The translations under genes and the position numbers were made by a program. 64,000 bases of DNA from Patiria pectinifera (Eukaryota > Echinodermata > Asteroidea > Valvatida > Asterinidae), in NCBI GenBank assembly GCA_029964075.1, contig CM057135.1:21416863-21480862 (forward strand). Direction: 5' to 3'. Positions 17,502 through 64,000 of the stretch are shown here, in pieces; positions within the stretch are counted from its first letter, which is position 1, and each line of letters starts with the position of its first letter. Below the pieces are notes generated by a model. That model worked only from the letters and a program-made list of their open reading frames with translations, did no database searches and was not told the DNA's origin.

Positions 17502-18220
17502 TAGTCCGAGTAACTTGGACCCAACTTATCGCCTTTTTTAACATTTGGACATGGTCTGGCGATAGTCAGGTCCAAGCTAATACCGCGACCTAGACAACAC
17601 AGTCCCAAAAACCAACATTTTCCAACAAAAAACATCAGATTTCACCTTCAAAGCGGCCTCCAAATACTACATATGCCACCTGAAGTACAAGTAGACATCG
17701 ATAATTAAGATGGTTGTACTGAAGTTTACTTACGATCCGGAAAAAAGTGAAATTTTCCGTTCATTTCGGAGAGCTCCCCTCGCGATCTTGAACACGTTAA
17801 ATTTCCAACCGTGTTTGATGTTTGAACGACGCGATTTCTTCTACATGCCCAGCGTACATTCGATGGTCCCGTATCCCGTGTGCGATTCCGTTACCGAGCG
17901 CGTGCGATGCATCGATTATGCATGATAATGAGTCACGTTTGTAAACACATACATGTGCATTTCGAACTGTAAAAGGGAATCGAGAACCAGCTTGAACTGG
18001 TACCCGCCATAAAAGCTGCGCTAGTTCCCGACTAAATGCACATGTGTTTACAAACGTGATCCAGTCTACTCATTATCATAACCGATGTTTTTTTGTTGGA
18101 AAATGTTGGTTTTTGGGACTGTGTTGTCTAGGTCGCGGTATTAGCTTGGACCTTACTATCGCCAGACCATGTCCAATTGTTAAAAAAAGGCGATAGGTTG
18201 GGTCCAAGTTACTCGGACTA
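17502..18220. mobile_element. MULE-like non-autonomous element with 137-bp inverted ends
   Basis: It begins TAGTCCGAGTAACTTGGACC and ends with the inverted form. The terminal inverted repeats extend about 137 bp with only a few differences. It is flanked by a 9-bp duplication, GGCATTAGG, at 17493-17501 and 18221-18229. Long inverted ends with a 9-bp duplication are the hallmark of Mutator-like elements. The centre has a second palindrome (CACATGTGTTTACAAACGTG and its inverse). There is no transposase. The right-hand duplication overlaps the end of the next element, so this one inserted into that element's terminus. Confidence 0.7.
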
Positions 18221-23180: not shown

Positions 23181-26105
23181 ATGGAGGAGGCGATTAATAA
23201 TGTAATGACGGAATGTGGCGTCCCGTACAATCTGAAGCCAGAGCAAATTCAGATCATAAGATCTGTCTTAGAAAGGCGAAAAAATGTGTTTGGCCTTCTG
23301 CCCACTGGATTTGGGAAGAGTGATTGCTACGGATGGTTGTCATCAATCATGGACAAAGTAAGTAACACTCATCAAGACACTTTAGAATGAGCTTTTCAAT
23401 TTATAAATACTTGTGTTTTCTATTTACTACAAATTAAGCAACCGAGAAAATGACATTAGGCCTATTATTTTCATTAAATGTAAAACGCCGACAGTACGCG
23501 CGTGCAAGAAAAAACTATTTCCCATTCAAAATGTAGGTTTTTCAAACATAACCTTCCCAGTATGGTGAAATTGCTGAACAGAAATTGTGCCTGTTGTGTG
23601 CGATGTTCAATATACAGAATATCCATCTTAAAGAAACACGCCGTCGATATTTGAAAATTTGATGTTTGTGACCATTATTTTAACTTGACCTATCGACAGC
23701 AATATTATTATTTGTCAGTTCCAGATTTGTGCGAGTCTATTTTTGCGTGAATGCTTATAGCCTAAGGTTATCATCTTTAAATTAAATCAGAACTGTAGAG
23801 AAAAAACACAATGGACATTTTTAAACCGTCTTTCAAAAAAAACCCCGTGATTAATTAATGAAGTTAAACATTCTTTGAGAGTATGTAACAACGATATTTA
23901 CTGTACTAGAACTTTGTATTGTATTTGAATTGCTGAAATGAAAGGTATTGCATGAAAAGTGCTATCCTTTATTAAGAAATGAAGTTTCCTAAAACAAATC
24001 ATCCTTATAAATTTGCCCATTAATGATTATAAAATCACCCTCATTTAATAGCAAAATTATCTAAAATTCTTTAGAAAAGTTGAGATGGAAGAATTTGAAG
24101 TGAAGGTATTATTACGACTATTAAAACAGAAAACATGATCGCGCAAACCTGAACCGTTCATCTCTTTTTTTTCCCCAGATAGAGCCTGATGTAGAGCACA
24201 TCACCCTTGTCATTTCACCACTGAGGTCCCTAATGCTCGACCAGGTAGAAAGGTGGAGCTGTCGAGGTGTCACGTGTGCCGCGATAATGCGAGCTGATGA
24301 AATTGATGATGCTACCAAGGAAGGTGGGAAGATTGTTCAACACATTGAACACAGAATGTGACCATAAGACAATTTTCTCTGACGGAATAAGCGGGAAACC
24401 ACTCAAACCTTTTGGGAAAAATTAGTGTACACAATAAGTATAGTATAGATTTTCTGATATCTTGTTATATTTTATTGCAGGAATTACGGAAGGGAAATTT
24501 CAACTGATATTTTCTTCTCCGGAGGCCATACTGCGGCACAAGTGGTGGTCTGCCGCCAAAAGATGGGCAAACCGCCTTACTGCCGTAGTTATAGACGAAG
24601 CACACTGCATGACAAAGTGGTAGGATACTTGAAATTGCATTGTCATTTATTATCCTTTCTTCAGCATTATTTAAAACAACTAAAGACCACACAAAAATGC
24701 ATCCTGACATAAATAAAAGGACAACAAAAAAGGCCTTAAGGACCCCCACTTTTCCGCTCCCACTGGCTTATAACCCCTTGCAGACAGAGTGGGTTGAGAA
24801 CATTTTATGAAAATTATAACTATTTACTCTATATACTATTCTGGAAGCGGGACGGGTGAAGCGTCCATAAACAAGTTTAAGTCGGGTCCGAATTCACGAT
24901 TCCACTTTAGAGTTTGAGGGGACCGTAATTGATGAGATAGATGGCCGATCTTTTCCAATTTGCCTTCGACGAGAGATGTTGAAGTTGAGCGGTCATCACA
25001 TACAAATGAAAGTGACCATACTTGCAAGGAGCATTTTCACAACTGATATGCGTCAAAATCTGTGGAAACGAAGTCGATAGTTTGTCCGTCTTTTGTTTAA
25101 TTTTTTTTAAATGCATGACCAACTTTTCCCATTATTTTATCAGGGGGACTTTTCGAGATGGATACAAAAACATTTCAACCATCCGATCAATTCTGTCCCA
25201 ACAACCCGTCGTGTGCCTAACTGCGACTGCAACTCAAAGCATGGTTGAAGACATCATACACACTTTAAATCTTGAAGTATCGTCATTTGAAATCATAGCC
25301 GTGCTGCCTGACAGGTGAGTAATAAAGCATGAAACGAATTAAAGATGAAATTGTACAAAATGCCTCTCCTTAAAGACCGGTTCACACTTCACGCGAACGG
25401 AGATGGCACACGAGTTTTACGTCACGAAATTTCATAAAAATGTCGTTGCAGTCGCATCGAAATATGATCCGGCCGTAACATGAATTTGTTCGTGCATTCA
25501 AAAATTGTGATGTTTTTTTATTTGTCAGGCCCAACATCAAAATTCACGCTGAACGGGTTGACAATGCAAACTTTGCAGAGCAGCTTAAGTGGTACGCTGA
25601 CCTGTTAAAGGGGAAAGAGGCGCCGAAGGCAATCATTTATGCAAGGTAACATTTCAACACCTCATATGGTTTTATATCTTGATTCACTTTTTTAATCATT
25701 CCTCTGGGGTATTATAATGATCTACTGTGTATTTTCTTTGTAGGCAAGTAAACGAAGTCGCAAACATTTATGCGTGGCTCATGAGCAGCCTGAATGAGAT
25801 GGCCTGGGCAGGCTCAGATCGCACCGTCCACAACAGAATTGTGGAAATGTACCACGGCACCACAGACCAAGAGAGCCAAAAACGGATTGTATCGTCCTTC
25901 GACAAGTCGTCATCTCCCCTTCGATGTGTGGTAGCTACAATGGCATTTGGGATGGGGGTTCAAATCAATGACGTAGACTTCGTCATCCACTGGGGCCCCT
26001 CTCGAGATGTACTGAGCTACTGGCAGGAAGTTGGCCGTTGTGCACGAGACGGACGGCAGGGGCATAGCTACCTTTATCTTTATCCGCGGTCTGTCAACAA
26101 ACGGA
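23181..26105 (+). CDS. RecQ-like superfamily II DNA helicase
   Basis: Exons are 23181-23357, 24179-24323, 24481-24619, 25144-25314, 25530-25645 and 25744 to about 26105; every junction is phase-matched (0, 1, 2, 2, 2). ATG 23181 opens MEEAINNVMTECGVPYNLKPEQ. Motifs in order: Walker A LLPTGFGKS, Ia VISPLRSLMLDQ, II VIDEAHC, III CLTATAT, IV AIIYAR, V VATMAFGMGVQIND, VI QEVGRCARDG. This is a 3'-5' helicase core of about 350 residues without visible RQC or HRDC domains. After YPRSVNKRMVQ the frame enters a LINE and stops; 3' of the LINE the frame would read LQITH then stop, so the original C-terminus may have been just beyond. It converges on the PHD/transposase-like gene. The core itself is intact. 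Confidence 0.85.
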
Positions 26106-27345
26106 TGGTTCAGGAGTTATCTTTCTAACCGTCAGCAATTTGTATCTATCAGTGGTGGAGTCCAACAGGGTTCTATCTTGGGTCCCCTCTTATTCTCTAT
26201 ATACATTAATGATTTTGATAAATCCTCAGATGTATTTTCTTTTATTCTTTTTGCTGATGACAGTAATTTATTCTATAGCCACAATGATGTAAATGTACTT
26301 TTTGATAGACTAATTATGAGTTGAAAAAAGTATCTGCCTGGATCAAAGCAAACAAGTTGTCTCTTAATATTAAAAAAACTAAATATATGTTATTCAGTAA
26401 TATGAAGTACTGTCAGCCGTTTCCAATCCGTATTGATGATACTAATATTATGAAAACGGATTGTTTAAAGTTCCTAGGTTTGTATATTGATGACACTCTT
26501 TCTTGGAACAAACATATTAATCACATTTCTGCTGTTATTTCTAGAAACATAGGTATTATATCCAAGCTAAAATGTACTTTTCCCCAGGATATCTTAATAA
26601 TGTTGTATACTACCCTTATTTTACCTTATATTACATATGGAATACTTGCATGGGGCAATAGTGGTACTGGTCAAATTAATAGAATCCTAAAATTACAGAA
26701 AAAGTATTACGTATCATTAACAACGTTGACTTTCATGAGCATAGTAATCCACTTTTTTATAATTGCAATACTCTTAAAGTTCATGACATTTACTCTCTTC
26801 AGCTGGGTTCCTTCATGCATCAACTTAACACTAACAGTTTACCCAATTCGATTTGTTCTATGTTTTCAAAAAATTATGATACGCACCTTTATTTTACAAG
26901 ACAGTTCAATGAATTTCATCGGTCTTACGCACGTACTGCAATCTTTAGGGCAACTGTTAAGCATGAGGGTCCCAAGCTGTGGAGCTCGGTTGATTTTTCC
27001 CTAAAAAAATATCTCCAGTCTCTCGCTCTTTAAGCACAAATACAAAAATGAATTATTGGAAAAATATTTAAGTACTTAATTGCTTTCTTTTTTTTTCTTT
27101 CTTTTTTTCACGGGGTTGCAGCTGCATGTTTTTCGAATATATTCATGTCTGGTGTTATGTCCTTATGTTTAGTTTGTGTGTGTAACTTGTAATATTTTTG
27201 TATGATTGTAACTGGGGATCTCTACTCGACAAGCATTGCTTTTTAGGGATCCCCATCCACATATTTTGTATACATTTACATGTAACTCTGATCGTCTTTT
27301 TATGTGGAAAATAAAGTGAATTGAATTGAAAATTGAATTGAATTG
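26098..27345 (+). mobile_element. 5'-truncated non-LTR retrotransposon (LINE)
   Basis: The insert carries the C-terminal half of a non-LTR reverse transcriptase: WFRSYLSNRQQFVS, GVQQGSILGPLLFSIYINDF, FADDSNLF, then VSAWIKANKLSLNIKKTKY and FLGLYIDDTLSW. A frameshift lies at about 26320 and another near 26720. The 3' end has AATAAAGTG and a (GAATT)n-type tail. GGTTCAG lies at both edges (26106-26112 and 27344-27350) and is a possible short target duplication. The copy is dead and interrupts the helicase's last exon. Confidence 0.85.
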
Positions 27346-29505: not shown

Positions 29506-30660
29506 TCACTTCCATGTGCCAAAAAATGCCCTCCTTCTATCATTTGTTGAGGAAAATGTTTTGCAAATCAACTTCAAATCTAGTTCTCTTGTTAGATGTT
29601 TGTGTATATGTGAAAATGCAACGTAATTTAGCCTCTTCTGTGACATGGTAGATCTCAAGTACGTTTTTAAGTGGCGCAGAGCAGAGAAATTTCTTTCTGA
29701 ATTAGCATTAGACATAGGAATTGTAAAATAAAGACGTAATAATTTGTGTAATTCCGACATAAGTAATTTAGTGGATTTATTATGTTGTAAAATGTCAGCA
29801 ACAGTAGAGACCTTTGTGATCTGCTTAACTTGCATATTTCTTGGCTGGCGATCATTGTGCGCCCTGACAACATCCGGAAGCATCGCCAGATGAACATTGA
29901 GTCGATTGATGTCAAAATCATTGGAGTACAGAGTACGCAGAGCTGGTGGTATGGAGAAGTCAACCCCGTTTGCAGCAGAAGTTATCATACTTTCTATATC
30001 AGATAGAAAACATAATGTCTGTTGATCAAAACGATCATTTATTTTAGCCAAGAGGGTATCCAAGAGTGCATAATATTGTTGCCGGTAGTACTCCTCAACT
30101 GTTTGCCATTGATGTGTTTGAGATCCTTCGTCAATCCGCATGGGTGGCATGATTGTTCTTCTTGGAAGCTCTGGCGCTGCTGTAAGGCCCTTGGCTGCCA
30201 ATTCTGCTTCTCTGTAAATTGAGGCAAATGTCTCATCAGTTCGCATAGATAAGTAGTGATTCTTGAGAGTTTCCGTGCACATGGAGACTTCTTCTGCTGT
30301 GATGGTTTTAGCTTGAAACACTCTCGCCATCTCCTCAGCAACAGAAAAGACCCTCATACTTATTTTCAAACCAAGGTATGTGCTGAACTTCTCTAAAAGA
30401 GCAATCAATCCAGGTGCTTTTGTAACAGCCTCTTTTTAGCCTCCTACCTCATGACTTATTCGAGAGTGTCAATAACATCCCTGTAGTTTTGATCAGTGCT
30501 GAAATGGCAGACGTTCTTGCTGTCCAACGTGTAGGGCAAAGAGGTTTTAGAGACACTCCAACTCCCCAAGAAAATGAATCCCCAAAGTTATGTTTAATAC
30601 TCTCAAACAGTGACAACCTTTTAGGCGAAGCATTGATGATTTCGTGTACTTCCTTGATTG
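29506..30660 (-). pseudogene. hAT-family transposase C-terminal half (ZMYM1-like), frameshifted
   Basis: Minus strand. The clean 3' ORF (from about 30420) has TVEEYYRQQYYALLDTLLAKI and ends with the hAT dimerisation signature: SNANSERNFSALRHLKTYLR followed by SQKRLNYVA. Upstream, in other frames, lie LFESIKHNFGDSF and LCPTRWTARTSAISALI, typical of the hAT central region, separated by a stop and at least two frameshifts (30430-30500). The apparent start of the long ORF is a TTG, not an ATG. The N-terminal half is missing; a minisatellite lies exactly where it should continue. It is related to the ZMYM1-like, non-BED-defined transposon-derived group. Almost certainly inactive. Confidence 0.85.
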
Positions 30661-46285: not shown

Positions 46286-47498
46286 TCAAGTGAGGTACTC
46301 TTCCAAAGAAGGGGGTTCAATTCCAAAGTACTGGCTGGTTTGACTGATGAACAGACAAGTATGACAGTTTGTAAGCAACGCCCCCACCAAATAGTACTTT
46401 GCCACTGGCTGGAGGAGTACTTTAAGATTTTTCCTGATATCGAGGAATGCAAATTGGGTTGAAATTTTCCCAAACTGCCACTCAACAGCTTCTCGAACCG
46501 ACAACATCACACGATTGAAGTGTTGCTGGTCTTCAGTTAGGTTTGCACCCCTGAATGGACACAGAAGGTAGTTTCGTAATGGGTATGCAGTGTCTCCATA
46601 CAAGGCAAACGGTAAATTATTGGCATCTACCTGACCATCAAGCTTGGCACCGAGTCCACTTTCACAAAGCAGTGCACAGTCATGCCTCCTTCCTTCTACT
46701 TGGGCCAAACATATTAGCAATCATGCCATCTGGTACGACAACTGACTGGAATTTCAGGGAGTGAATCCGCCTTTGCCCATTGTAACACACTCTCTGATTC
46801 CGAGTAGGTCTGCATATTGGCCGTACAGTTCCATCAACAAATCCGAAGCAGTTATTTAGAGGAGCACCTTTCCGGTGGATTGCATCTGCATACTCCTGCA
46901 ACCTATTGTTTATCCATGGTTGGTTTAAGTTCGTCAAGAGGTGTCCATGCACATCAAAGAGGTGGTTCAGAGTAGTGTTGATTATCAATGATAAGGTAGA
47001 TTTCGGACAGCCAAAAAAAGGCTCCAAATCAACAAGTCTATTGGATACACAAACCTTTTGAGGAGAACACATAACGCATCCCGCCCACTAACAACTGTTC
47101 TGTCCGGGCAAACAAAATGGTCAGGCAAACGCAGTGCTGTGGCCAGTCGTCGGATCGATTGTTTGTCGAATCTGACGTGCTCAGACACTGAACATCTGAT
47201 AAACTTTCTAAGCGAAATCTTTCGAAATCAGTATCATACGTTGTCGGCCCAAAATTCGGGAGAAGACACATGAAAACCATATCTTCGTCGTCATTTTCGA
47301 CAGCAATCTGCATCATCGCATCTCGCTCCCCGGGCGTCGCCATGTTGAATGCTAGCGCCCCCAAGTGACACGTAGCGCTATTAAGTATTAGGACCGGCCT
47401 TTGATTGCGAAACAAACGCGTGTTTAACGTGAACGGCTACGGTTATCATATCCGTATCTAGCTGTATCTGTATCCGTAGACTTGCGAAACCTCCCTAA
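46286..47498 (-). pseudogene. PIF/Harbinger transposase, multiply frameshifted, with right terminus
   Basis: Minus strand. A start MATPGERDAMMQ (about 47343) leads into an N-terminal region that breaks into another frame (MSEHVRFDKQSIRRLATALR), then another (PFFGCPKSTLSLIINTTLNH). The DDE_Tnp_4-type catalytic core follows: GFVDGTVRPI (first D), ALYGDTAYPL (second D) and REAVEWQFGKI (E), ending at a stop near 46286. At least three frameshifts make it inactive. The right element end TTGCGAAACCTCCCTAA (about 47482-47498) matches the inverted ends of the non-coding element at 18225-19188. I could not find the left end. Confidence 0.85.
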
Positions 47499-49170: not shown

Positions 49171-49177
49171 CATGCTA

Positions 49178-49480
49178 CACAGTAAACATTAGATAGTCAC
49201 TTGACTAAAAAAAATTAGTCATTCTTATGGTATAATTTGACCAATTTTAATTAGTCACCAAGTTAGAAGATTAGTCATTACACTGGTGAAATGACTAATA
49301 ATATTTAGTCTTTCAAAATGGTTTAATTTGACTAATTTTTTCAATAATTAGTAATGCACGAAATTTAATTAGTAATCCCCCCAAAATAATTAGCAATTTG
49401 GTAAAATTAATTAGTCTTTATTTTAGTACTGCGACACTCGTAATCAGTCTGCAACAACAACAATTAGTCTACCAGATATT
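49178..49480 (+). repeat. Left subterminal ATTAGTC repeats
   Basis: ATTAGTC occurs at about 49211, 49241, 49271, 49411 and 49461, with the complement GACTAAT near 49293 and 49340. Spacing is irregular, about 15-60 bp. In CACTA elements such motifs bind element-encoded protein; that role is inferred here. Confidence 0.6.
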
Positions 49481-49629
49481 CTCAAAAATTCAATTTCATG
49501 AATTTATTTGCCAACAATTCACAAATTCATCAATGAACGATAATTGCAATTGATCAATATTTGCAAAGTCAGCATACACTGCCCAACAAAGGAGCCGAAT
49601 TTCAAATTCAACAGTGGACTAAACTTGTC

Positions 49630-51157
49630 ACAAATACATCAAATATTAATAGCACTGTTCTGAAAATTGCCTGCATGCCATCATGAAGATGAACGATAAT
49701 TCACTAGTTGAGTTTACACTTATACATGCAGTTGGACAAATTGATTTTAACACACATATGAACTGTTCTGAAAATTTCCTGCATGCCATCATGAAGATGA
49801 ACGATAATTCACTGGTTGAATTTACACTAATGCAGTTGGACAAATTGATTTTAACATTTAACATACATATGAACTGTTCTGAAAATTGCCTGCATGTCAT
49901 CATGAAGATGAACGATAATTCACTAGTTGAGTTTACACTTATACATGCAGTTGGACAAATTGATTTTAACATTTTAACATACATATGAACTGTTCTAAAA
50001 ATTGTCTGCATGCCATCATGAAGATGAACGATAATTCACTGGTTGAATTTACACTAATGCAGTCGGACAAATTGATTTTAACATTTTAAAATGCATATGA
50101 ACTGATCTGAAAATTGCCTGCATGCCATCATGAAGATGAACGATAATTCACTGGTTGAATTTACACTAATGCAGTCGGACAAATTGATTTTAACATTTTA
50201 ACATGCATATGAACTGTTCTGAAAATTGCCTGCATGCCATCATGAAGATGAACGATAATTCACTGGTTGAATTTACACTAATGCAGTTGGACAAATTGAT
50301 TTTAACATTTTAACATGCATATGAACTGTTCTGAAATTTGCCTGCATGCCATCATGAAGATGAACGATAATTCACTGGTTGAATTTACACTAATGCAGTT
50401 GGACAAATTGATTTTAACATTTTAACATGCATATGAACTGTTCTGAAAATTGCCTGCATGCCATCATGAAGATGAACGATAATTCACTGGATGAATTTAC
50501 ACTAATGCAGTTGGACAAATTGATTTTAACATTTTAACATGCATATGAACTGTTCTGAAAATTGCCTGCATGCCATCATGAAGATGAACGATAATTCACT
50601 AGTTGAGTTTACACTTATACATGCAGTTGGAAAAATTGATTTTAACATTTTAACATGCATATGAACTGCTCTGAAATTTGCCTGCATGGCATCATGAAGA
50701 TGAACGATAATTCACTGGTTGAATTTACACTAATGCAGTCGGACAAATTGATTTTGACATTTTAACATGCATATGAACTGATCTGAAAATTGCCTGCATG
50801 CCATCATGAAGATGAACGATAATTCACTAGTTGAGTTTACACTTATACATGCAGTTGGAAAAATTGATTTTAACATTTTAACATGCATATGAACTGCTCT
50901 GAAATTTGCCTGCATGGCATCATGAAGATGAACGATAATTCACTGGTTGAATTTACACTAATGCAGTCGGACAAATTGATTTTGACATTTTAACATGCAT
51001 ATGAACTGATCTGAAAATTGCCTGCATGCCATCATGAAGATGAACGATAATTCACTGGTTGAATTTACACTAATGCAGTTGGACAAATTGATTTTAACAT
51101 TTTAACATGCATATGAACTGTTCTGAAAATTGCCTGCATGCCATCATGAAGATGAAA
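49630..51157 (+). repeat. 112-bp satellite, 14 tandem units
   Basis: The word ATGAAGATGAACGATAATTC recurs at 49683, 49791, 49902, 50018, 50130, 50242, 50354, 50466, 50578, 50694, 50806, 50922 and 51034, with a last broken unit at 51146. Spacing is mostly 112 bp, with 116-bp variants that carry ACACTTATACATGCAG in place of ACACTAATGCAG. The unit pair 50578-50805 is repeated as 50806-51033, a higher-order duplication. The array stops 5 bp short of the stop codon of the minus-strand gene. Confidence 0.95.
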
Positions 51158-51161
51158 GGCT

Positions 51162-54100
51162 TTACTTTTTGCGTGTTTCTCGTGTGGCAGCTCTTTTCTT
51201 GTCAAGGCGTGCCTTGAGTGTTAAAACAGGCTTTTCAACCAGTGAATTATCGTTGATCTTCAGCAATGCAAACTGGTAAAAAGTAATCGTTTTAACAAGA
51301 GACGAAATGTACTGAAGGTGGAATGTGTAAAATACAGACAGATAGCATGCTACTGCTGTGATGATGTCATCGACAGTACAGATAAGCTCCCCTTCGGCAA
51401 TGATCCTGAACTCTGTAGCCACGGATGGTGAATGGTCATTCATTTCGATGAAGAATGCATGTCCATTTTCCTCGTCCTTATAAAAATAATCAATGAAAGA
51501 AAAAGATATCTCAAATTTAATAAGATCCTCTTCATTGCAAAGATAAACTATAAAAGATCACACAAAAGCATTCTGCACATCAGTTCAGTTGTAAACAGTC
51601 AGTGAAAAACTTGCATCCTTAATTCTGCATGGATTAAGGACTCTTCACAGCACTTTCACTGTGAATGTAAGCCTTACTGCTTTTCATTGGTTCATGAAGA
51701 AGGGAAAATAAGTGTTGCGGCCGGCAAAATGAAACATTCCCTACTCATGATATAATTAATCAAGGGCTGCCGACTGCAGAGTGATATCAGACAAAGATGT
51801 ACCACGTTCAGTACTTGATTCTGCACATAACATATGTTGGAGTAACCAAATTCTTTAAAATACAGTCCAACATCAATTGTATTTCCTATGAGAGACGTGG
51901 GTTGCCAGATTTTGCTAACTTAGCCTTTCTCCCAACCTGGGGATTCCCATGATAACTATCATGCATGGTTATTCGGGTTATTTGGCCAAACCCTGGTTAA
52001 TATGCAAAACCTGTTTAATTTCAGCCCTTTTCTAATGTATAATTGAATCGGACATGATGATGATGATGATGATGATGATCGATGATGTGGGACAACATGA
52101 TGTTTTAAACACCCAAGGAATGCATAGCACCCGAGACAATGCCGGGGGTGCTTTGTGTCCCTGCGGATGTTCAAAACATCATGTTCCACATCAATGCAGT
52201 CTTTAGTTGTTTTATCATATCTCTGTCTTGATGACGAAAAGTGAGGGCAACATTGAAAGGAATATTTGTTCATTATTGTCTACAGCTTAAGTATTTCCCC
52301 TGACATCAATCGTGTGGGTTTGAAGTTTTATGCACACACGTGTATGGGCGTGTGCACAATATCATCAGGCCAGTGATGTCTCGATTTTGACATGCATTTT
52401 TGTCACAGTCATGTGATCGTTCAGGGGCAGTGGAAAAACAGTATTCAAGACAGAGGTATGACAAGTATGGTTGTACGTACCTTTGAAGAGAACATGTCTT
52501 TCATGTTTTCCTTTAGCAAGGATGGCAAAACCTCTATGGCTGTCGCCATCTCACAATCTGAATGATAAAAATGACATCAAAAAGCTGAGCTGTGCATTCA
52601 AAATCTCACACATAAACTACAAACCAAGGCAATGTTACTTAACTTCAGCAGTTCATGAAATGCATTCGTTAATTAGGTGTGGAGCAAAATCAACCGATAT
52701 ACCTTAAATCCAGTCGTAAAATTTGTTTGGTAAACTTGAATTGTTTTAATAAGGAAGGCCGCGGGCCTGGTTATAAAGTATAAAAGAGTACTGGCCCGTC
52801 ACTGCTAATCAACTGCATGCTTAAACACAATCAAGCACACTTTCAATTCCATTCATAGAATCTTTTCCTACTTTTGATATTACTTTTTAAAAAACATTTA
52901 TCTTTGATGTTTGTGGAAGTTGCTCACATGTAAAAGTACTGTAAGCATGACAACATAAAGACTTGAGTGGTTCACTGCAGTGTCATTCCCACAACAGTAG
53001 AGTGAGACTGCCACAAGTGTTTATGAATGGTACTTACTGCCAGAACCATGGTTTGCAGAGATCAAGCTTTCTTCATTTCGCCTTGCAGTGTAACATTCCA
53101 AAATGCTGCTTGCATTTTCGTCCAGCCCCTTCTGCAACAGCGACTTCAGGTGGGAAGACCCATGGATCCTATGGAATTCCGCCAACAACTATATGAAAGA
53201 TTAGAAATCCTCCCAGCCTGTAATGGCTTTTAACAACAGAGTTTTTGCAAAGTATGATACAGCCAGATAGCAAGATGGATACATGGTCTCACGATGCCCA
53301 ACGCATACAACTCGCCATCTGCTATGCGTATGCAAGACATGGTTATTGTACTTTACTATAATTAGCCAATAAACAAGTAAATTTCTGGTGATCTATATTA
53401 AAAGCCAACTAAGACTGGCTGCAGAACTTTGCAGGCTATGTCTGGACTGTCTGGCTAGGGTAGGACTTGAACCCATGACCTCCTGTTTACTAGTGCAGAC
53501 TGCAGATGTCTTAACCACTCGACCATCGACCTTGCCGGGGTCGGCTGGTTGATTCGATGCAAAGTCCATCTTTAGAAAGTTTGACCCCAGTACCCCCTGC
53601 TACATCTCACTCGAACCAGCAAGCCGACCCCGGCAAGCTCAGTGGTCGAGTGGTTAAGATGTCTGCACTAGAAAGTAGTAGGTCGTGGGTTCAAGTCCCA
53701 CCTGAGTAAGCTTGTGAATTTTTGGTAAGCTCTTGGACAACATATATACATCGGTAAAGGGCAAAAAACTAAAAGACCCTACTTAAAAGTGTCTCGCGTA
53801 GTAAAGTAACATAAAAACCACTTTAATGTCATACCTCATGCTCAGTAAAGAGCCATGGGTACTGCTTCTTTCTCTGGCTAATTGGCTTTGATTCCCCCTG
53901 TACAATATCCCGTCTCCGATCTGCAAAGGTGAGACCCATATGCCGTCCTACTTCCTTGTAGTCTGGCCTCTTCTTTGCAATTTCTATCTGAAGCCATTTA
54001 TTGTGAGCAGAAACTGTTGTCTCGTCTTCTGATTCCAAGCGATCGGGAAGGTAATTCTGCAAACCCCACATCGGTGCATACTTTGGAGCCATCTTCTTAG

Positions 54101-57100
54101 GGTGAGTGCCTTTAGGTGCTGGTGGCTGTTTTCGTTTCCTGTTTTTTACCTCCAACATTTCCCTGACAGTTGGATTCCTTTTCCGAGTATTCTGGAACTT
54201 GTACTTCAGTTTCTGTAGCCACATTTCCTGAAATAAATAACCAAATGTTGTTAATTCGAACCTTGTTCATAGCCGGGGCGAGTTCATGGTTTTCTATTTT
54301 CTTAATATATATTGGTGGGGAAAGTTTGTTTCTAAAGATGGAATTTGCATTGGGGAGATGGGAAAAGTTTGTTAATATTAATGTACAAATTGATGATACC
54401 CTGAAGCCACACATAGCCTTTGAGTGGCTGATCACCATTTGAATTCTGGTTTTACAGTTACATCTCTATATAGTCCTACGTCCCATTAGTCCAATGAAAC
54501 ATAAATACTGGTTCAGTACTGACATGTAGGACAATATTTTCCTTGATCTATCGTGCCTGGCTAGAATGTGGTGCACATGGGTAATCTTGGAAATTTTGTT
54601 TCAGGTCCGCCCTTGGTGGCACCCCATATTATGCTGGTGCCCCCCCCCCCCCCCCCCCGAGGAAATCCTGGCTACGCTGTAGGACCAATGGGACCGTAGG
54701 ACTATAGAGACGTCCCCATTTTTATCATATTGCACATCACAGATAACTGGCCCACTTGTGGACACATCTAGAATTAAAATCAATTCAGTGAAACTTTGTA
54801 TGCATCCATTAAGGATTTAAGAAGAGGCTTCACTTCTGAAAAAAGTTGAGCTTCAGGAGCATGCAGTTTTATTGTAAGATTTGAGGAATTAGTTATGTAT
54901 TCACTACTGCTACTCCTATTTTTGATTCATGTACTTGTCTTGGTTCCAAACATGCATACTCACAGCTAGGCAGGGCCAGGCTAGGCAGAGCTTTATGAGA
55001 ACCCTTTGAATATTCTGGCATTTTGCATTGTATGACAGGCATCCCTGTACAGGTTTTCAGGCCACAACTTCTACTATTCAAAGGTTGATCGATGCATGCA
55101 GAGTCAAGTGGGACCACGACTTGTGGTTTTGTGTTTCTCAATCAAATGCCAGACCTTTGGTCCAACCTTTCCAACATGTAGAGAAAATGTGATGGAGCAT
55201 GTGTAAAGTCTACAAGTTGATACTTATGTTCCATCTCACGTCTAATTCCTCTTTTGCATGTAATTATAAGCAACAGTATTACTGATTTGGTCATGCTAAG
55301 CTGCAAAGAATGCAGAATCATACCTTTAGGTTTGCAATATTCAAGTCAGTGACAAGGGGATACTTCAACAGCAGCTGTTCTACGAGCTGCACATAGTCTG
55401 ATGGTGTTGGATACCTATGATGTATAAAAGTTGAAAATAATCATGAATAAGTAATTTTGACAAACAGATAAACGTTAACAACAGATACTAATTAAAGCTG
55501 TTTTCACATCTTCTGTAGTTCCAGCCCAAGACTGGATTTGGACCTCTTTACTGTGAAAATGGGGTTTATGTGAAGGCTCCATGGACATGCTTAAAATGTA
55601 GTTGAACCACGTTTGGTTACATTTTAACTGAAAACTGGATATTTTGACTGAGTGCATTTTCACAGTGTTTGGAATGTGCGCTTTCCTAAAAAAAAAAATC
55701 CTTAATTAGGATGGCCCACATGTACTATGTGGACAAATCACGACTCGTAAGTACCGTAGACATTATTTCCCCTTACAATAATGAACATTAACTCACAGAG
55801 TATGAGGTTGAACTGCCTCAAAGATGGTGTCCAGGATCACTGACTCATTGGCAGATGACAAGATTTCTTTCGCTTGTATTTTGTTGGTTATGAGATCTGG
55901 CAGCTCGGGTAAGTTGAAGGTGTTGATCCACCAAGATACTTTTGATGGCTTCACTTCTCTGAAAACAAGAAAGTGCGGAACAAATTACGCTACTGAATAT
56001 CCCCTGTATCACTCTGGTGACAATGGAGTCCCTAGTACATTTCTATGCATCCAGTTAGGGACTGTGAGTGGCAAAAAGAGTTTTTGGGACCCTGTTGTGG
56101 TCACTCACATGCAGTGGCAGTGATGGGAACAGTGTATTAGCTAGCCACCTAGAGGGAGTGTTTTGCACTCCCTTAGAGGGAGTGTTTTGCACTCCCTATA
56201 TTCAAAAATCACACCGTTTTGAGCAAAATCTACATGCAGTACATGAATAAAATGCACACCCAGAGTGTGGATTTCTAGACAATACAGTGGATGGGAAGGG
56301 GGAGGGGATGTTTTCGAGATTACATTAGGTGGCGGGGGAGGTGGGGGGTAGAGCATAGACGTACACTTTTTGCATCATGTAAATGAACTGCATCCCAGAG
56401 AAAAAAATTCTCAAATATAATTGCAAGGAAATGCACGTTCCAAAATGACTGGTTTCACTTTTCGAAAATGGAAGAACTTTTTTTTTAAAAAGGACGCTTT
56501 CTCTACCAATAGCAAAACTGCTCTGAACCAGCCCAAAATCCGAACACAAACAAGGCCAAACCCAACTGGATTCTTTTAAAACCTTGCACCGAAAAAACTG
56601 ACCTGAGGCTGGTTTCCTAATAACAATAGGCTTGTGTGGGATAGATTTGTACGATACACAACCCACCAAAACTAATTCAAAAGGGAAAAGGCAACACTCA
56701 CGGTTGTTCATCTTGCTGTGTCGGTATCACAGCTAATGGAATAGTAACTGGTAGAGTAAGGATGCTTGGAACAACTATCTTCACTTTGGACATTGGCAGG
56801 ATCTCTTCATCTGGCTCAACGTTGATGAATTCTTCAAATTCAGCATTCCATAGCTGAAGCTGTATGGCTTGTCCTTCCAGTTCTGGGAAGATCTCAAGGG
56901 CTCGATTCTCAAGGTCTCGTAATTGCACCTTTTCTTTGTCTGGCACATCTGTTATTTTCTTAGTGTCATTCCACATCAACAAAAACCTGTGTACATCAAA
57001 GTGCACACAGGGTTAAACATATGGATACCCAGAAATTGATAAAATTGGAGGGTTACGTTGAGATTAAACTCCATTCATGTACATGCTCTCCTTTTCATAT

Positions 57101-58776
57101 GCACACCAAAAAACAGTGCACATGTTCATGGTTAACATGCAGCTTTGAACAACTTACAAAATGTGATGCCTAATGACAATGAGCTTTGCATGGTCTGTAT
57201 TATACACACCAAGAGGATAGTAATCTGCCAATTCTGTCACTTTCAGCAATTTGAATTCAGTATCACATTCATCAGATATTGCATAGGCATGAACATGCTG
57301 CACATAGTCTGTTGTCTTGACAGGCTTGCACAGAATATGTACAATTCCAGAAATAATGAAGCTCATTTGAATGATTCCAAAGCAGTATTCATTCTCCAGC
57401 TTTTCCAAAACAACAGCAGACCCTGCACGGTACCATGTTCCATTACATGCTACATGCTTCACTTTGTACACATCGGTCTGACCTACAAGAGGAAGGATCA
57501 ATTGTTGCACATTCCTTGGCAATTCATTGACATGCTTCAGTTCTCCTCCAGAGTGTTCAATTACATCTTGGGTGAGAAATTTGTCTGATTGTGATTTAGA
57601 CAAGTACCAGGCTTGATGATACTGGTGTCTCTCTGCAAGAGTTTTCAGGATATTCTTTCTGTTTTTGGTCCTCCATGCTACCTGTTTGAAGTAGAAATGC
57701 TTCGCTTCAAAACGAAGCGTCCAGCAATGTATTAGTGGACCATACTCCAAAAGAAGCCTTGGGTAGTGCACAATGAAGTGAAACTTAGGTTTCATGGAAA
57801 TATCTGGATACTCTGTGTAGTAGCTAGACAGAAACAAATCAATGAGAAAGGCAAGGAATTCGGATGTCACTCTGGTCACTTTAGGCATCACACAATACTC
57901 CACAACATCGAGAAGGAGCAATAAAGCTGCCCACTTGCTGTCTCCAAAAGGAACTGCATGGCCAACCATGAGGGGCAGTAAACGTAGCAGGCACCAAGAC
58001 TGTGCTGCTGTTTGTTTAACCTTGAAGCTTCCAATCTGGGATGACATCACACTTGGTTTGTTTCTCTTGTCACTTGCATCATAGGGAAAGTTTGAAACTT
58101 GCCCATTCAAATAATTAAGTGAGAAATAGCCCTCATGAACACAGTGTGTGATGGTATTGCACATGACTTCAGGTACAATGCCCTCAAAAAAATCATGAGT
58201 GATATCGCAAGGGAGCCCACTAGTTACATGAAAGTACTGTAACTGATTAAATGGAGAATCACGCTTTACACCATACAATGATGCAAGATTAGGATTTTCC
58301 ACTACAAGTTGAACCTGTTGGTCATACGCTTCTTTGGATCGTATTTCCAGACCTTCACAATTGAAGTGTCTCTTTAGGGTTCGAGAGGTTACATTGCAGA
58401 TACGACAAACACGTCCACTATTAAAATGTTCTTGAAAGCCCCCTATTGCATGAGCAGCTGGGTTGTCTGCACTAAAAAAGCTTACAGTCCCATACATAGA
58501 ATACTCTACACCATCTTTGTACAGCGTTAGACCATCCGTCTCCAAAGCTGTAATATCTCGTATTAGTGGTTCTACGATTCTGCTCATTCCATACTTTTTT
58601 ATGTGGGAAGTCAAGCACAGACAAACTAGCTGTATACTTTGCAACTTTGACCTATACTTTGGTGATATGTTTCCAAGAACGTAGTAAAAAGCACCAAACT
58701 TCAACCCTTTGACTTTGTTGCCCAGAGGATTCCCTACACAAAAGTCATCATAATACAGCTGAATTTGAAGATTCAT
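51162..58776 (-). CDS. Transposase-like domain spliced to PB1-like and SAMD3-like exons
   Basis: Minus-strand exons: 58776-57158, 56986-56702, 55958-55797, 55414-55324, 54227-53835, 53188-53038, 52557-52481 and 51476-51162 (stop TAA). All seven joins are in phase. The first exon has LGNISPKYRSKLQSIQLVCL, VEPLIRDITALETDG, ADNPAAHAIGGF, C..C, LPCDITHDFFEGIVPEVMC, PKFHFIVHYPRLL and LRFEAKHFYFKQ, a multicopy transposase-like family of fish and invertebrates related to RNase H-fold (Tnp2/CACTA-type) enzymes. The second has a PB1-like fold (KVQLRDLENRALEIFPELEG...VEPDEEIL). The rest (SWWINTFNLPELP, YPTPSDYVQLVEQLLLKYPLVTDL, MWLQKLKYKFQNTRKRN, TFADRRRDIVQG) fits SAMD3-like proteins. An unspliced 57157-56987 intron gives a TAA instead, so separate products are possible. 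Roughly 1020 residues if joined. Confidence 0.7.
52057..52087. repeat. (GAT)n microsatellite
   Basis: About ten GAT/ATG trinucleotides in an intron of the minus-strand gene. On the minus strand it gives the serine run of a spurious ORF. Confidence 0.8.
53455..53710. repeat. Inverted pair of tRNA-like (SINE-like) elements
   Basis: The plus copy (about 53630-53710) has A-box-like TGGTCGAGTGGTTAAGATG, an anticodon-loop-like CTAGAAA, B-box GGTTCAAGTCC, and short stem words CTCAG and CTGAG. The minus copy (about 53560-53455) carries the same boxes with CTAGTAA. CAGCMAGCCGACCCCGGCAAG precedes both. The two lie head to head in the intron between exons 53835 and 53188. They resemble tRNA-Ser without a long variable arm; more likely tRNA-derived SINE heads than working tRNA genes. 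Confidence 0.55.
54462..54711. mobile_element. MITE with about 30-bp inverted ends and an internal C run
   Basis: Left CATCTCTATATAGTCCTACG followed by TCCCATTAGTCC is inverted at the right as GGACCAATGGGA, CGTAGGACTATAGAGACG. A run of 17 C lies at 54642-54658. Intronic, non-coding. Confidence 0.6.
56149..56199. repeat. Tandem short hairpins
   Basis: AGGGAGTGTTTTGCACTCCCT occurs twice in direct tandem. Each forms an 8-bp stem with a 5-nt loop. Located in the intron between exons 56702 and 55958. Role unknown. Confidence 0.75.
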
Positions 58777-59573
58777 GTGATTTGTGGAGAACAGGCCCTT
58801 CTATACAGAGAGCCATCACAGTAGTCATTAAGGGTTTCATCGGCAAAATGGCCGTTATAAACTTCTGCAAAGACATCATCCTTATCAAGTAACACCTTGA
58901 CAGTTGAAAGAACTGAAATGTACTGCATTGTATCACCCTGGCCAAGGATATACTCCACTGGTTCCACGTATCCAAACTGCTCTGCTGCATATTTGTTGAT
59001 GTGACGATCTGCTGAGAAATACCTCAATGCCTTTTCATAATTTGACTCCCCTGATGCAGTTGCAAGGTCAAGTTGCTCAAGGTTCTGAAAATTAGCACCA
59101 CCTCTCCCTATTATTTCGTGTACGTTTGCACTTAAATCTTCACGATACGATCTCATAATATCTGCCATCCCATTGGCAACATAGGTGCATGCACTGGTTG
59201 AGGTCTTTAACTTTTCTCTTAAACCAAGCAAGAATGAGCTCACTTCATGGTTTTCATTTATTTGCTCATTTTGGTTGTTCTGACCAGGATTATTGCCATC
59301 ATCGTCATTATCATCATCAACAACATCATCGTCATGTATAATTCCTTCTACATTTCTGTTTTGGACTCTATTGCGTCTGCTGCAATTCTCCATCCAAAAC
59401 GCCTCATGTTTATATTTAATGTGATTCAAATATGCTCGCACTGTTGCAAGAAATTTGTGACAACCACTTATATTGCAAAGTATTTTTTGTGCACAATGCC
59501 CATGCCTGTAGTGTTTTATGAGTGACGAAAATGTGTTTTTCTCTGCAAAGCAAATACTGCATGCAAACCTCAT
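58773..59573 (-). CDS. C2H2 zinc-finger N-terminal part of the transposase-like gene
   Basis: ATG 59573 opens MRFACSICFAEKNTFSSLIK. Two C2H2 fingers follow within 65 residues (C..C...H....H in CSICFAEKNTF...HYRHGHC and CNISGCHKFLATVRAYLNHI). Next come an acidic stretch of D and N (about 85-105), GLREKLKTSTSACTYVANGM and a region ending YRRACSPQIT. Its TGA overlaps the ATG of the next ORF as ATGA (58776-58773), with a -1 frame relation. In the related family these parts form one protein, so this is a frameshift, a sequencing error, or a point of recoding or re-initiation. The zinc fingers would bind DNA at the element ends if this is a transposase. Confidence 0.7.
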   Translation of the reverse strand: MRFACSICFAEKNTFSSLIKHYRHGHCAQKILCNISGCHKFLATVRAYLNHIKYKHEAFWMENCSRRNRVQNRNVEGIIHDDDVVDDDNDDDGNNPGQNNQNEQINENHEVSSFLLGLREKLKTSTSACTYVANGMADIMRSYREDLSANVHEIIGRGGANFQNLEQLDLATASGESNYEKALRYFSADRHINKYAAEQFGYVEPVEYILGQGDTMQYISVLSTVKVLLDKDDVFAEVYNGHFADETLNDYCDGSLYRRACSPQIT

Positions 59574-61390
59574 TTCATTTTAGGTAAAAGTAAATTAATT
59601 CTGGATTTTCAACTCCCAACTTTATATTGTGTATAATTCCCACCAATAGTGAGCAGGCATTATGCAAAGTCCAAATAAAAAGACAATTTGGCTGTGTGAA
59701 ATTAATTGAGTGCGGTAATGAAAAATCAAAATTACTTTTATGGCATCACATTATATTTCTGACCATGCACATGAATGGACTGAAATAATCTCAATGATTT
59801 CTTGCTTTTTTTGCTTTCAGTGATCCTAATCAGAGTGCCAGATAATTCATGACCCTATAAAATAAAAAACAAATAAATTAGGGTAAGTGCATAAAGACCA
59901 TGCTGTGAAATTCTAAATCCGGCCCCCGCTTATGACAAATCTGAACAATGCTTCATATTCTCTTGTTATTACCCTCTAGGGCAGGACATACATGTACATG
60001 TATACACGTATAATATGGAAACCAATCTAAAGCAGAGGGTTCTCTCGTCCCTTTAGTCCATCTATCTCAATCTGACAACACTAAATAACACTTACTTGAA
60101 GACACAGTTTGCGCTCATGATGAAAAGCACATGCACCAGCCAACTACTTGCTGAATGTCAATCTAAAATGCAACAAATAAAAAATAAAAAACTCAATTCA
60201 AATTTGTCTCAATATCCAACAAGTTACATGTTATACCTGTGCTTGGGTGTTTAACATGCAGTAACGTCAGAAAGTGTATGCCAAAAGGCATGCATGTAGT
60301 ATGCCCTCCCCATATTGAGTTTATAAGGCACCCACCGACAGAGGGTTTTACATGGCTGTATGGGTGGACTTGAGTAGCCTACAGGTTAATTAAACTGTGT
60401 ACAGTCCAATGAACCTGGCTGACATGTCGAGTTAACTTGGGTCAAACTGGGCCCCAGTTTACTCCGATACAGCCTCAACTTTCAAGTTACGAAGTGGCTA
60501 CAGTTACGGAAGTTTGACAGGCTGCCTGGATTTTTTTATTATTTTTTATTTTTGAAAAATGCAGTAAAAACACTGAAAAAGTCCACAAATTCATCGGAAA
60601 ATAAATACTTGCGAAATATGTAGAATTGTCGAAGTTTTCAGTATAGACTCTGTCAGTCACTTTGTACACCACATAATATCGACGTGTGATATCGCTACCC
60701 CTGCAACAGTGCGAGCATGGCGAGTTCACAAAAACTCACCCACTTCGTTCCCAGACCAAAAGATTCTGACTATTCCTGATGAATCTATGCGCCCATGGAG
60801 TCGAGGCTGAGACGTGAGCGTCAGGAATAATTGTCAGGTTTAGGGAACCAGACTACGTACATGTATGTCTATTGATAGTTTTAGACTACAGTCGTTTGAA
60901 AATTCAACCGGAATCTGTCTGCCGTACTGTATGTGGTAAATGCTGACTTCAAAGCCAGAATGCAACCGGTATGAGACTAGCTCACGCTGGAGCATGTGTT
61001 TAAAGAATTCGCTCGGGACTTTTGGCGGTTAAAGCAAATGCATCTAAAACTGTTCTTGGTAGACCAATACAACTATAAAGGACACTGTAAATATGTTCAG
61101 TTCTCTTGTCCAACTTGTCTTTTATTTTAAATGTGTCTTTGAACAGTGGAAACACCAACGGTTGCAGGAAATTTTATAATGGTGGCCATCTTGAAAAAAA
61201 AGAAGAAAAAAAACAGAAAAAGCCCCTCTTCCTCCTATTTTTCAAAAACCCGGACGAGAAACTTTTTTTTTACTCGGCCTTATGGTTACCGTAACTATAG
61301 CCACTTCGTTCACGTTAACCCAGGTGCCGGGAAGAGTTCCGTACACGGACAATGCTTATTTTTTCCTGTAGTGACCTACATGTACAACTT
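59574..61390. other. Upstream region of the transposase-like gene, no exon recognised
   Basis: Expected to hold the promoter of the minus-strand gene if it starts at 59573, but no TATA or first exon could be fixed. 59580-60700 is AT-rich. Short ORFs at 60487 and 61146 have no motif; the latter includes a poly-lysine run from AAGAAG repeats. Confidence 0.4.
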
Positions 61391-61397
61391 TAGACTT

Positions 61398-61974
61398 GAT
61401 CACGTTTGTAAACACATGTGCATTTCGAACGATAATAGGGAGTCGGGAACTAGCGCAGCTTTTATGGCGGATACCAGTTCAAGCTGGTTCCCGATTCCCT
61501 TTTACAGTTGGAAATGCACATGTGTTTACAAATGTGACTCATTATCATAATCGATGCATTGCGGGCGCTCGGTAACGGAATCGCACTCGGGATAGGGGGA
61601 CCATTGAATGTACGCTGGCATGAAGAAGAAATCGCGTCGTTCAAACATTAACACGAGTCGGAAATTTAATGTTCAAGATCGCGAGGGGAGCTCTCAGAAA
61701 TGAACGGGAAATTTCACTTTTCTTCCGGATCGTAGGTAAACTTCAGTACAACCATCTTAATCATCGATGTCTACTTGTACCTCAGGTGGCATATCTAGTA
61801 ATTTGGAGGCCGTTTTGAAGGTGAAATCTGATGTTTTTTGTTGGAAAATGTTGGTTTTTGGGACAGTGACAGGATGATGTTGTCCAGCTCGCACTATTAG
61901 CTTGGACCTTACTATCGCCAGACCATGTCCAAATGATAAAAAAGGCGATAAGTTGGGTCCAAGTTACTCGGACT
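61398..61974. mobile_element. Truncated, inverted copy of the MULE-like element
   Basis: It matches 17502-18070 in reverse orientation, including GTTTGTAAACACATGTGCATTTCG, GGAGCTCTCAGAAATGAACG, GGTCCAAGCTAAT and the terminus ending TTACTCGGACTA at 61974. The second inverted arm is missing, so no target duplication can be read. It lies inside the candidate CACTA element. Confidence 0.75.
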
Positions 61975-62005
61975 AATGATAGGCCTACTTCTGAACATAC
62001 TCGCC

Positions 62006-62180
62006 GAATGGAACACATAAAAATAATGATAATCTATCCAAAAATCACCCCAAAAAATGACAAAAACTGTACCTCGGTGAGCTCACAAATTTGACAAAGT
62101 CACATGCTCACCAAGGTAGTTTTTGTCATTTGTTTGGTGATTTTGGATAGATTTTGTCATTATTTTTATGTGTTCCATTC
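62006..62180. mobile_element. Fold-back MITE
   Basis: GAATGGAACACATAAAAATA at the left and its inverse at the right start arms of about 75 bp with few mismatches (ATCTATCCAAAATCACC, TGACAAAAACT, CTYGGTGAGC) around a loop of about 25 bp. Non-coding. Confidence 0.85.
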
Positions 62181-63399
62181 AGTGAGTTTATGTTAAGAAG
62201 TATCATAGGAAATTTCAGATTGATCGGAAGGTTTGGTCGCGAGAACGGGGTGAAAACTGGAGTGCCAAAACCTAAGGCTAAAAAATCATCCTTCCTATGG
62301 GGGACGGTATGACCTTCATACTAGTTCTAGTCTAGGGGTATACAGGGCCTAGGCCCTGGCTATGACATTCTTAATAAAAGACAATGTTCAGACCAGTCTC
62401 AAAGTCGGTTATTGCACAGTCAATGACCTTGAGGACATGGAGGAATTGACAGGGACTGTGTGTCAAATATTGTCGTGCATGTGGTGTACATGTACTGATG
62501 TAGCCTACGTGTGAGAAGTATACAACTTACATTTAGCCTGGCTTTACATTACAAGTTAACTGCAACTCCCCTGCCTGAGCATCGTCCTTCCCAACATGTC
62601 CCTCAAAATTTCGAAAACCCACCCTCTATTCTACTTCCAACCTATTCTACGCAGTGTGTCTTATCCTCAATTAAGTGAGTTCACACTTCAAAGGGAGAAG
62701 AAGAGAAGAATCAACTCGCCCCACATGGCCCAGACAATGCTAACGCTAAGGCTAACACTAAACAGACGGATAGCATGTAGGCCTATAGTGCATATGGAAC
62801 TCGGACAGTAGGCGTAGGCCTATTACTACATGCGTAAAACTGTAGCCGGGATTTTGCGTATTTGCTGTTTATCACGACCCCAGGTCTAATTTACAGTAGG
62901 CTACCTTCAATCCAAGACAAAATAATACTTAAGTTGAAAGAGGTAAACAGTAAAGTTGTTTTATTTTAGACCTACCTCAATCAGATCAGACCGAAGTTCG
63001 TGGGTTGCTTCTCACCCTCGGCACGCTGGGGCAGATCTGGCGCTCGCCTCATCGCTGCTCAATTTGGCCTCTGTATAAGTACATTTCGTCACCAGACTAG
63101 TGCAGACCCGCCGCGCCGTTGTGTTGAGCGCCAAAAAGTTTTGCGAAAGTGCTTAGAACTGCCGCGCTCATACTGTCTTATCGGGAACAGTGAATGTGTA
63201 ATAACTACTCATTTTGTGGCCGTCCTAACGAAACTTGCTTTTCATTTTCTTGAAAAGAACAAATATGATTTTTATATTGCTAGGGAACCGTGCTTGTTTT
63301 CTTGAGGAGGACACATCTCTTCTTTACTTTCAGAGATCAGAGGGAGGGAGGGTTATTATTTAAGCTAGAAACAACTTCGGACAAATCGTATGCAGTTTA
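62181..63399. other. Gene-free stretch inside the candidate CACTA element
   Basis: Nothing recognised on either strand. Short ORFs at 62596 and 63000 have no motif. Confidence 0.4.
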
Positions 63400-63703
63400 G
63401 TATTCCAGCGATTAATTAGTCATCCAATTTGTCACCCGTATTTTAATTCGTCTTTTGAAAATGTAATGACCAACATGATTAGTAAATCCGATCAATACTA
63501 ATTAGTCTAACAGTAACATTTGTCTTTGCAAAATCTCAATTAGTCTTCACAAAAACTTGGGTTAGTATTTCAATAAAACTAATTAGTCAAAAGACATCCG
63601 ATTAGTCTTTTAGATTTAAACATTAGTCAGTTGTTAAAAGACTAATGTTTTTTCTCAGTTTGACGAATTTTTGGTGCAAGATGACCAACTAATGTTTTCA
63701 GTG
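63400..63703 (-). repeat. Right subterminal ATTAGTC repeats and end
   Basis: Six ATTAGTC copies (first near 63415, others through 63625) and one GACTAAT near 63640, followed by the inverted terminus CTAATGTTTTCAGTG. The motifs are mainly in the same orientation as at the left end, so only the last bases form a true inverted repeat. Confidence 0.6.
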
Positions 63704-63705
63704 TA

Positions 63706-64000
63706 GCATGTTAGACGAATTCAAAATGCAAACAGAATTTCTTCATTATGACATGTTAAATGGGTACTTAAAATACACGACAAACAAAGAGTACAAGCAT
63801 TTGGCGGCAAACTTTTTTCAGCGAGCCAAGAAAGGACACTGCTAGAAGAGTACTACTTATTACGGGGATTGAACGATCTAAGCCTGGCAAGAAGAGGAGT
63901 ATGATTCAACTAGTAAGTGAATAAAGTTCTCCTGCAGGTCCATTGCCATTTGCATTTTTGATTTCCCCCCTTTCTCTCACCCCAACACTTTGACAATTAT
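63706..64000. other. Right flank, nothing recognised
   Basis: No exon or repeat supported to the window end. Confidence 0.4.

Follow-up and report, generated by a model that had tools for sequence, protein, structure and literature searches.

Several described systems offer points of comparison for the element analysed here, among them the two-product TnpA-TnpD system of maize En/Spm and the antibody-gene enzyme RAG1. One account assigns to the CMC(T) clade (EnSpm, Mirage, Chapaev, Transib and related elements) a DDE triad in which C(2)C and H(3-4)H motifs lie between the second D and the last E, termini that are mostly CA...TG and a target-site duplication (TSD) of 2 to 5 bp; it also describes ESTA, fungal EnSpm-like transposons with TA TSDs that carry a TET/JBP gene (PMC12730594). 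CACTA/EnSpm in the strict plant sense has a 3-bp TSD, according to a second source (PMC4158355). Here we analysed a window of 64,000 nucleotides from the sea star Patiria pectinifera (GenBank assembly GCA_029964075.1, contig CM057135.1, positions 21,416,863 to 21,480,862, forward strand), in which the 14.5-kb segment 49178-63703 had been predicted to be a CACTA-like element with an unusually long passenger region. This segment is likely one degenerate copy of a cut-and-paste transposon of the animal EnSpm-like (CMC-clade) group, with a single gene for a zinc-finger/DDE/BAH-like transposase and for a spliced C-terminal extension that is owned by the family at least in its first exons.

The transposase exon encodes a DDE enzyme of the CMC (CACTA/EnSpm-Mirage-Chapaev) type. 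D17, D111 and E364 make up the triad, C131-x2-C134 and H340-x3-H344 lie between the second D and the last E, and the predicted structure of the exon (predicted local distance difference test, pLDDT, 92) matches the RAG1 and Transib fold. D17, D111, E364, C131, C134 and H344 were identical in 37/37 aligned sequences. E205 is also identical in all 37; it was rejected as the catalytic glutamate because the RAG1 alignment range, placed by the RAG1 residue numbers, and the C(2)C/H(3)H spacing point to E364. The original prediction had proposed alignment with EnSpm/CACTA profiles as a route to the catalytic residues; the residues were located, but the Pfam transposase models gave no match to the window copy. 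This weighs against the assignment, as does the fact that the scores inspected for Transposase_21 (PF02992), which matched 17 of the 37 family members at E values up to 10 (best 9.4e-6), were below the curated cut-off. PDB sequence searches returned no match. The likeness to RAG1, ProtoRAG (BbRAGL) and Transib lies in the predicted fold over residues 5-411 and in the C(2)C and H(3-4)H motifs between second D and last E, whereas identity was only 7-14% in the VIA alignments, no 5-bp TSD was seen and the flanking domains are different. In the same model residues 412-540 look BAH-like, and this domain might read chromatin.

As predicted, the ends enclose a zinc finger and a transposase-like gene, which proved to be a single minus-strand gene with a C2H2 open reading frame (ORF) followed by the DDE transposase exon. 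The zinc-finger ORF (58776-59579), with the C2H2 fingers at its start, and the transposase ORF (57157-58800) occupy different frames. In the relatives P0001 and P0002 a single frame runs through the boundary between the two regions, suggesting a frameshift near 58776-58800 in this copy, or an assembly error. Because the frameshift divides the zinc-finger from the catalytic ORF, the copy is probably dead and damaged, and full transposase should not be made from it.

Downstream of exon 1, seven GT-AG introns can be removed and seven further exons join in frame, with exon borders picked by eye and splice-site strength unscored. Counted from the second ORF, the spliced frame stays open for 1038 residues up to a stop at 51162. 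The gene had been described as splice-intact in its 3' extension, which holds for the extension itself, but the frameshift between the zinc-finger and catalytic ORFs had gone unmentioned. Pfam searches of the extension at E values up to 10 found no PB1 or SAMD3 match, leaving both labels of the original prediction unconfirmed, and a PDB sequence search with exon 2 gave no match. Judging by titles and the first lines of abstracts, with subscription papers and Repbase outside the scope, searches for papers on SAMD3, PB1 or BAH with transposons found none that describes this architecture.

Without splicing, the exon-1 reading stops at a TAA inside its GTAAGT donor, which suggests two isoforms. 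In copies that are intact, binding of the repeated subterminal motifs would fall to the zinc fingers or to the extension and the RAG1-like DDE domain would cut at the CAC/GTG ends, while the stop codon in the donor would give a short enzyme from the unspliced transcript and a long or accessory form from the spliced one. By description, maize En/Spm is similar in its repeated subterminal motifs and in having two products per transcription unit, if the putative isoforms are made here. Alternatively, the element could make the extension as a separate protein, comparable to the accessory ORF2/TnpA of plant CACTA and only optionally joined to the transposase. This explanation overlaps with the preferred one and is a possibility that we rate as the lesser. 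It is favoured by the stop inside the donor and by an in-frame ATG as the fourth residue of the extension, and in plant CACTA a second ORF supports excision in specific families (PMC4158355); however, the frame is unbroken across the exon 1/2 junction, and the gene models of two relatives, P0010 and P0060, fuse both parts.

To place the extension relative to the family, 133 collected proteins were scanned by eye for extension-like tails, and four carried them, namely P0010 (Holothuria), P0060 (Armadillidium) and P0095 and P0115 (both Merluccius). For P0060 and P0010, none of the 500 shuffles made per tail reached its score; 7 did so for P0115 and 19 for P0095. Three of the four tails (P0060, P0010 and P0115) were searched against the whole window by tblastn. 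The isopod tail P0060 found exon 3 as its best match (E 2e-5; next 0.44), and its last residue aligned to the end of exon 3, at the same junction. The two fish proteins were not counted as extension relatives, given their shuffle results and the lack of a leading exon match for P0115. From the tail matches of P0060 and P0010, exon 3 therefore appears to be common to the isopod element, and exon 2 only perhaps to that of the sea cucumber; none of the compared tails provided a confirmed relative of exons 4-8. On these sequence comparisons the extension, at least in its first exons, is unlikely to be a passenger peculiar to this copy, and its description as an unusual passenger was probably wrong.

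Several results weigh against family ownership of the extension. The best tblastn match of the sea-cucumber tail P0010 was exon 2 at an E value of only 0.26, and the leading matches of P0115 lay outside the exons. Of 36 aligned relatives, 32 stop no more than about 25 residues from the end of exon 1, and named gene models such as those of Asterias (P0007) and Apostichopus (P0009) terminate there too. A search aimed at longer relatives yielded 13 proteins of 895-1015 residues, 0/13 with the extension, and a search with the extension sequence, in which 7989 candidates were scored, detected no fused protein at E 0.01. The exon-1 endings could reflect two isoforms, databank ORF calls cut at the intron or relatives that have no extension, which the data do not separate; many of them may be single-ORF calls unable to cross the intron. 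These early endings, the failure of both searches and the lack of a confirmed relative for exons 4-8 are what favours a true passenger, in which this copy or its subfamily would have captured the 3' exons, or exons 4-8 alone, from host sequence. We consider such a capture unlikely, though conceivable for exons 4-8, and doubt it for exons 2 and 3, because the isopod protein, and weakly the sea-cucumber protein, run on beyond the same transposase with sequence resembling these exons.

Scans of viral contigs gave no confirmed relative, and a scan of genome contigs gave one locus, L001 (446-2980 of contig QNXQ01000014.1), an animal-type transposase of the same family on an animal-like contig filed under an Aquifex metagenome-assembled genome (MAG), which is probably contamination of the bacterial MAG. 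No extension was recognisable in the L001 ORFs; the ORF ends in TAG, not GTAAGT, and a donor might lie a few codons earlier. Two further attempts were unused: when exon 2 was aligned by MAFFT with P0060 and P0010 in full length, its residues were scattered, and a structure model of P0060 made without an alignment was too poor (pLDDT 32).

The predicted TA-flanked, CAC-type inverted ends with about seven ATTAGTC motifs each were recovered. In the 64 kb, exact matches to CACWGWAAACATTAG, a search pattern derived from the two ends themselves, were only CACAGTAAACATTAG at 49178 (plus strand) and CACTGAAAACATTAG ending at 63703 (minus strand); when 3 mismatches were permitted, 18 matches were found versus 11.1 expected, a number reached in 4/100 shuffles. 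The left and right ends pair over about 44 bp, with an additional 7-bp inverted match in the flanks, and their local alignment (52 columns including flanks, 3 gap positions) scored 48 versus a maximum of 37 among 1000 dinucleotide-shuffled versions of the right end (0/1000 as good). ATTAGTC occurs 20 times in the 64 kb versus 8.2 expected (20 reached in 0/100 shuffles), with only 6 occurrences outside the two end clusters. Nested palindromes and repeats are abundant in the region, as would suit two ends that come from separate miniature inverted-repeat transposable elements or relics rather than from a single unit, but this is very improbable given the sole exact pair, its long pairing, the 7+7 shared motifs and the matching transposase class enclosed.

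For the element bounded by these ends, the termini are CAC...GTG and TA borders it on both sides, within flanks that by eye form a palindrome (CATGC-TA ... TA-GCATG) compatible with a TSD of TA (2 bp) or CATG (4 bp). With CAC as the start, TA is the duplicated sequence and insertion would have been into the palindrome CATGC-TA-GCATG; a start three bases further out fits a CATG duplication, and starts two or four bases out fit GC or AT. Because the flanks are palindromic the TSD is ambiguous, which counts against the proposed classification. By eye, no 3-bp TSD was seen (flanks CTA and TAG if CAC forms the first bases), and for this reason the element was not filed as CACTA in the strict plant sense. 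In the broader sense the predicted CACTA/EnSpm-like nature is supported. The locus shares CAC...GTG ends, repeated subterminal motifs and the CMC catalytic motif set with EnSpm/CACTA (TNP2 transposase). Pfam similarity exists at the family level, with Transposase_21 ahead of DUF4218 (PF13960). The locus differs from EnSpm/CACTA in its N-terminal C2H2 fingers, the BAH-like C-terminal domain of the model, the spliced 3' extension, the missing 3-bp TSD and the lack of a Pfam transposase score for the window copy. ESTA, likened here by description, has the C(2)C/H(3-4)H motif in common with it, and also the TSD, provided that the sea star duplication is indeed TA, but is fungal and carries the TET/JBP gene in place of the extension.

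More tentatively, animal EnSpm-like transposons might possess an ancient cross-phylum architecture of zinc fingers, RAG1-like DDE domain, BAH-like chromatin-reader fold and spliced C-terminal module, in which the stop in the splice donor would switch between a short and a long isoform, and the module, once detached, might have given rise to cellular SAMD3-like genes; we hold this to be conceivable rather than probable. If the BAH-like domain and spliced extension were general, a RAG1-like nuclease and a chromatin-reader fold would be combined in the EnSpm transposases of animals. Chromatin could then guide insertion by a route open to testing, and cellular proteins might have a source in transposons. 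The single locus on its own is one dead copy.

Table 1. Features of the element and its immediate flanks (window positions).
Feature	Position	Strand	Evidence or remark
Left flank CATGCTA	49171..49177	+	ends in TA; inverted match to right flank
Left terminal inverted repeat	49178..49221	+	starts CACAGTAAACATTAG; exact pattern match and local alignment with right end
Seven ATTAGTC subterminal motifs, left	49214..49469	5 plus, 2 minus	motif count
112-bp satellite, 13.4 copies (~1.5 kb)	49654..51156	+	repeat analysis
Exon 8 with stop codon	51162..51476	-	in frame; no confirmed relative
Exon 7	52481..52557	-	GT-AG, in frame; no confirmed relative
Exon 6	53038..53188	-	GT-AG, in frame; no confirmed relative
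tRNA-like sequence in intron 5	53636..53709	+	overlaps palindrome 53459-53702; Rfam tRNA 41 bits
Exon 5, lysine/arginine-rich stretch	53835..54227	-	GT-AG, in frame; no confirmed relative
Exon 4	55324..55414	-	GT-AG, in frame; no confirmed relative
Exon 3	55797..55958	-	GT-AG, in frame; best match of P0060 tail in whole window, E 2e-5
Exon 2 (PB1-like in original prediction)	56702..56986	-	GT-AG, in frame; weak match to P0010 tail
5' splice site of exon 1, GTAAGTTG	57150..57157	-	contains TAA ending unspliced reading
Exon 1 continued, DDE catalytic domain	57158..58800	-	alignment, structure model
BAH-like domain (look of model)	57178..57564	-	model residues 412-540
E364	57706-57708	-	DDE residue
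H340/H344	57778-57780 and 57766-57768	-	H(3)H motif
C131/C134	58405-58407 and 58396-58398	-	C(2)C motif
D111	58465-58467	-	DDE residue
D17	58747-58749	-	DDE residue
C2H2 zinc-finger / N-terminal ORF of transposase	58776..59579	-	ORF list; severed from catalytic ORF by frameshift near 58776-58800
Nested repeat	61391..61975		88% identical copy at 17502-18068
Seven ATTAGTC subterminal motifs, right	63415..63646	6 plus, 1 minus	motif count
Right terminal inverted repeat	63661..63703	-	reads CACTGAAAACATTAG inward, ending 63703; exact pattern match and local alignment
Right flank TAGCATG	63704..63710	-	inverted match to left flank

Part of the 14.5-kb length consists of the 112-bp satellite, the nested repeat, four palindromes and the tRNA-like stretch. 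The satellite unit has 29 bp (28 identical) in common with exon 8 (51234-51262) on the opposite strand. Elsewhere in the window, two minus-strand ORF pieces at 46289-47087, some 2 kb beyond the left end of the element, match DDE_Tnp_4, which is Harbinger-type. The minus strand also contains an ORF with a hAT dimerisation domain (29509-30435) and a retrotransposon gag and aspartic protease ORF (13-1767), and an ORF with a helicase C-terminal domain lies on the plus strand (25721-26125).
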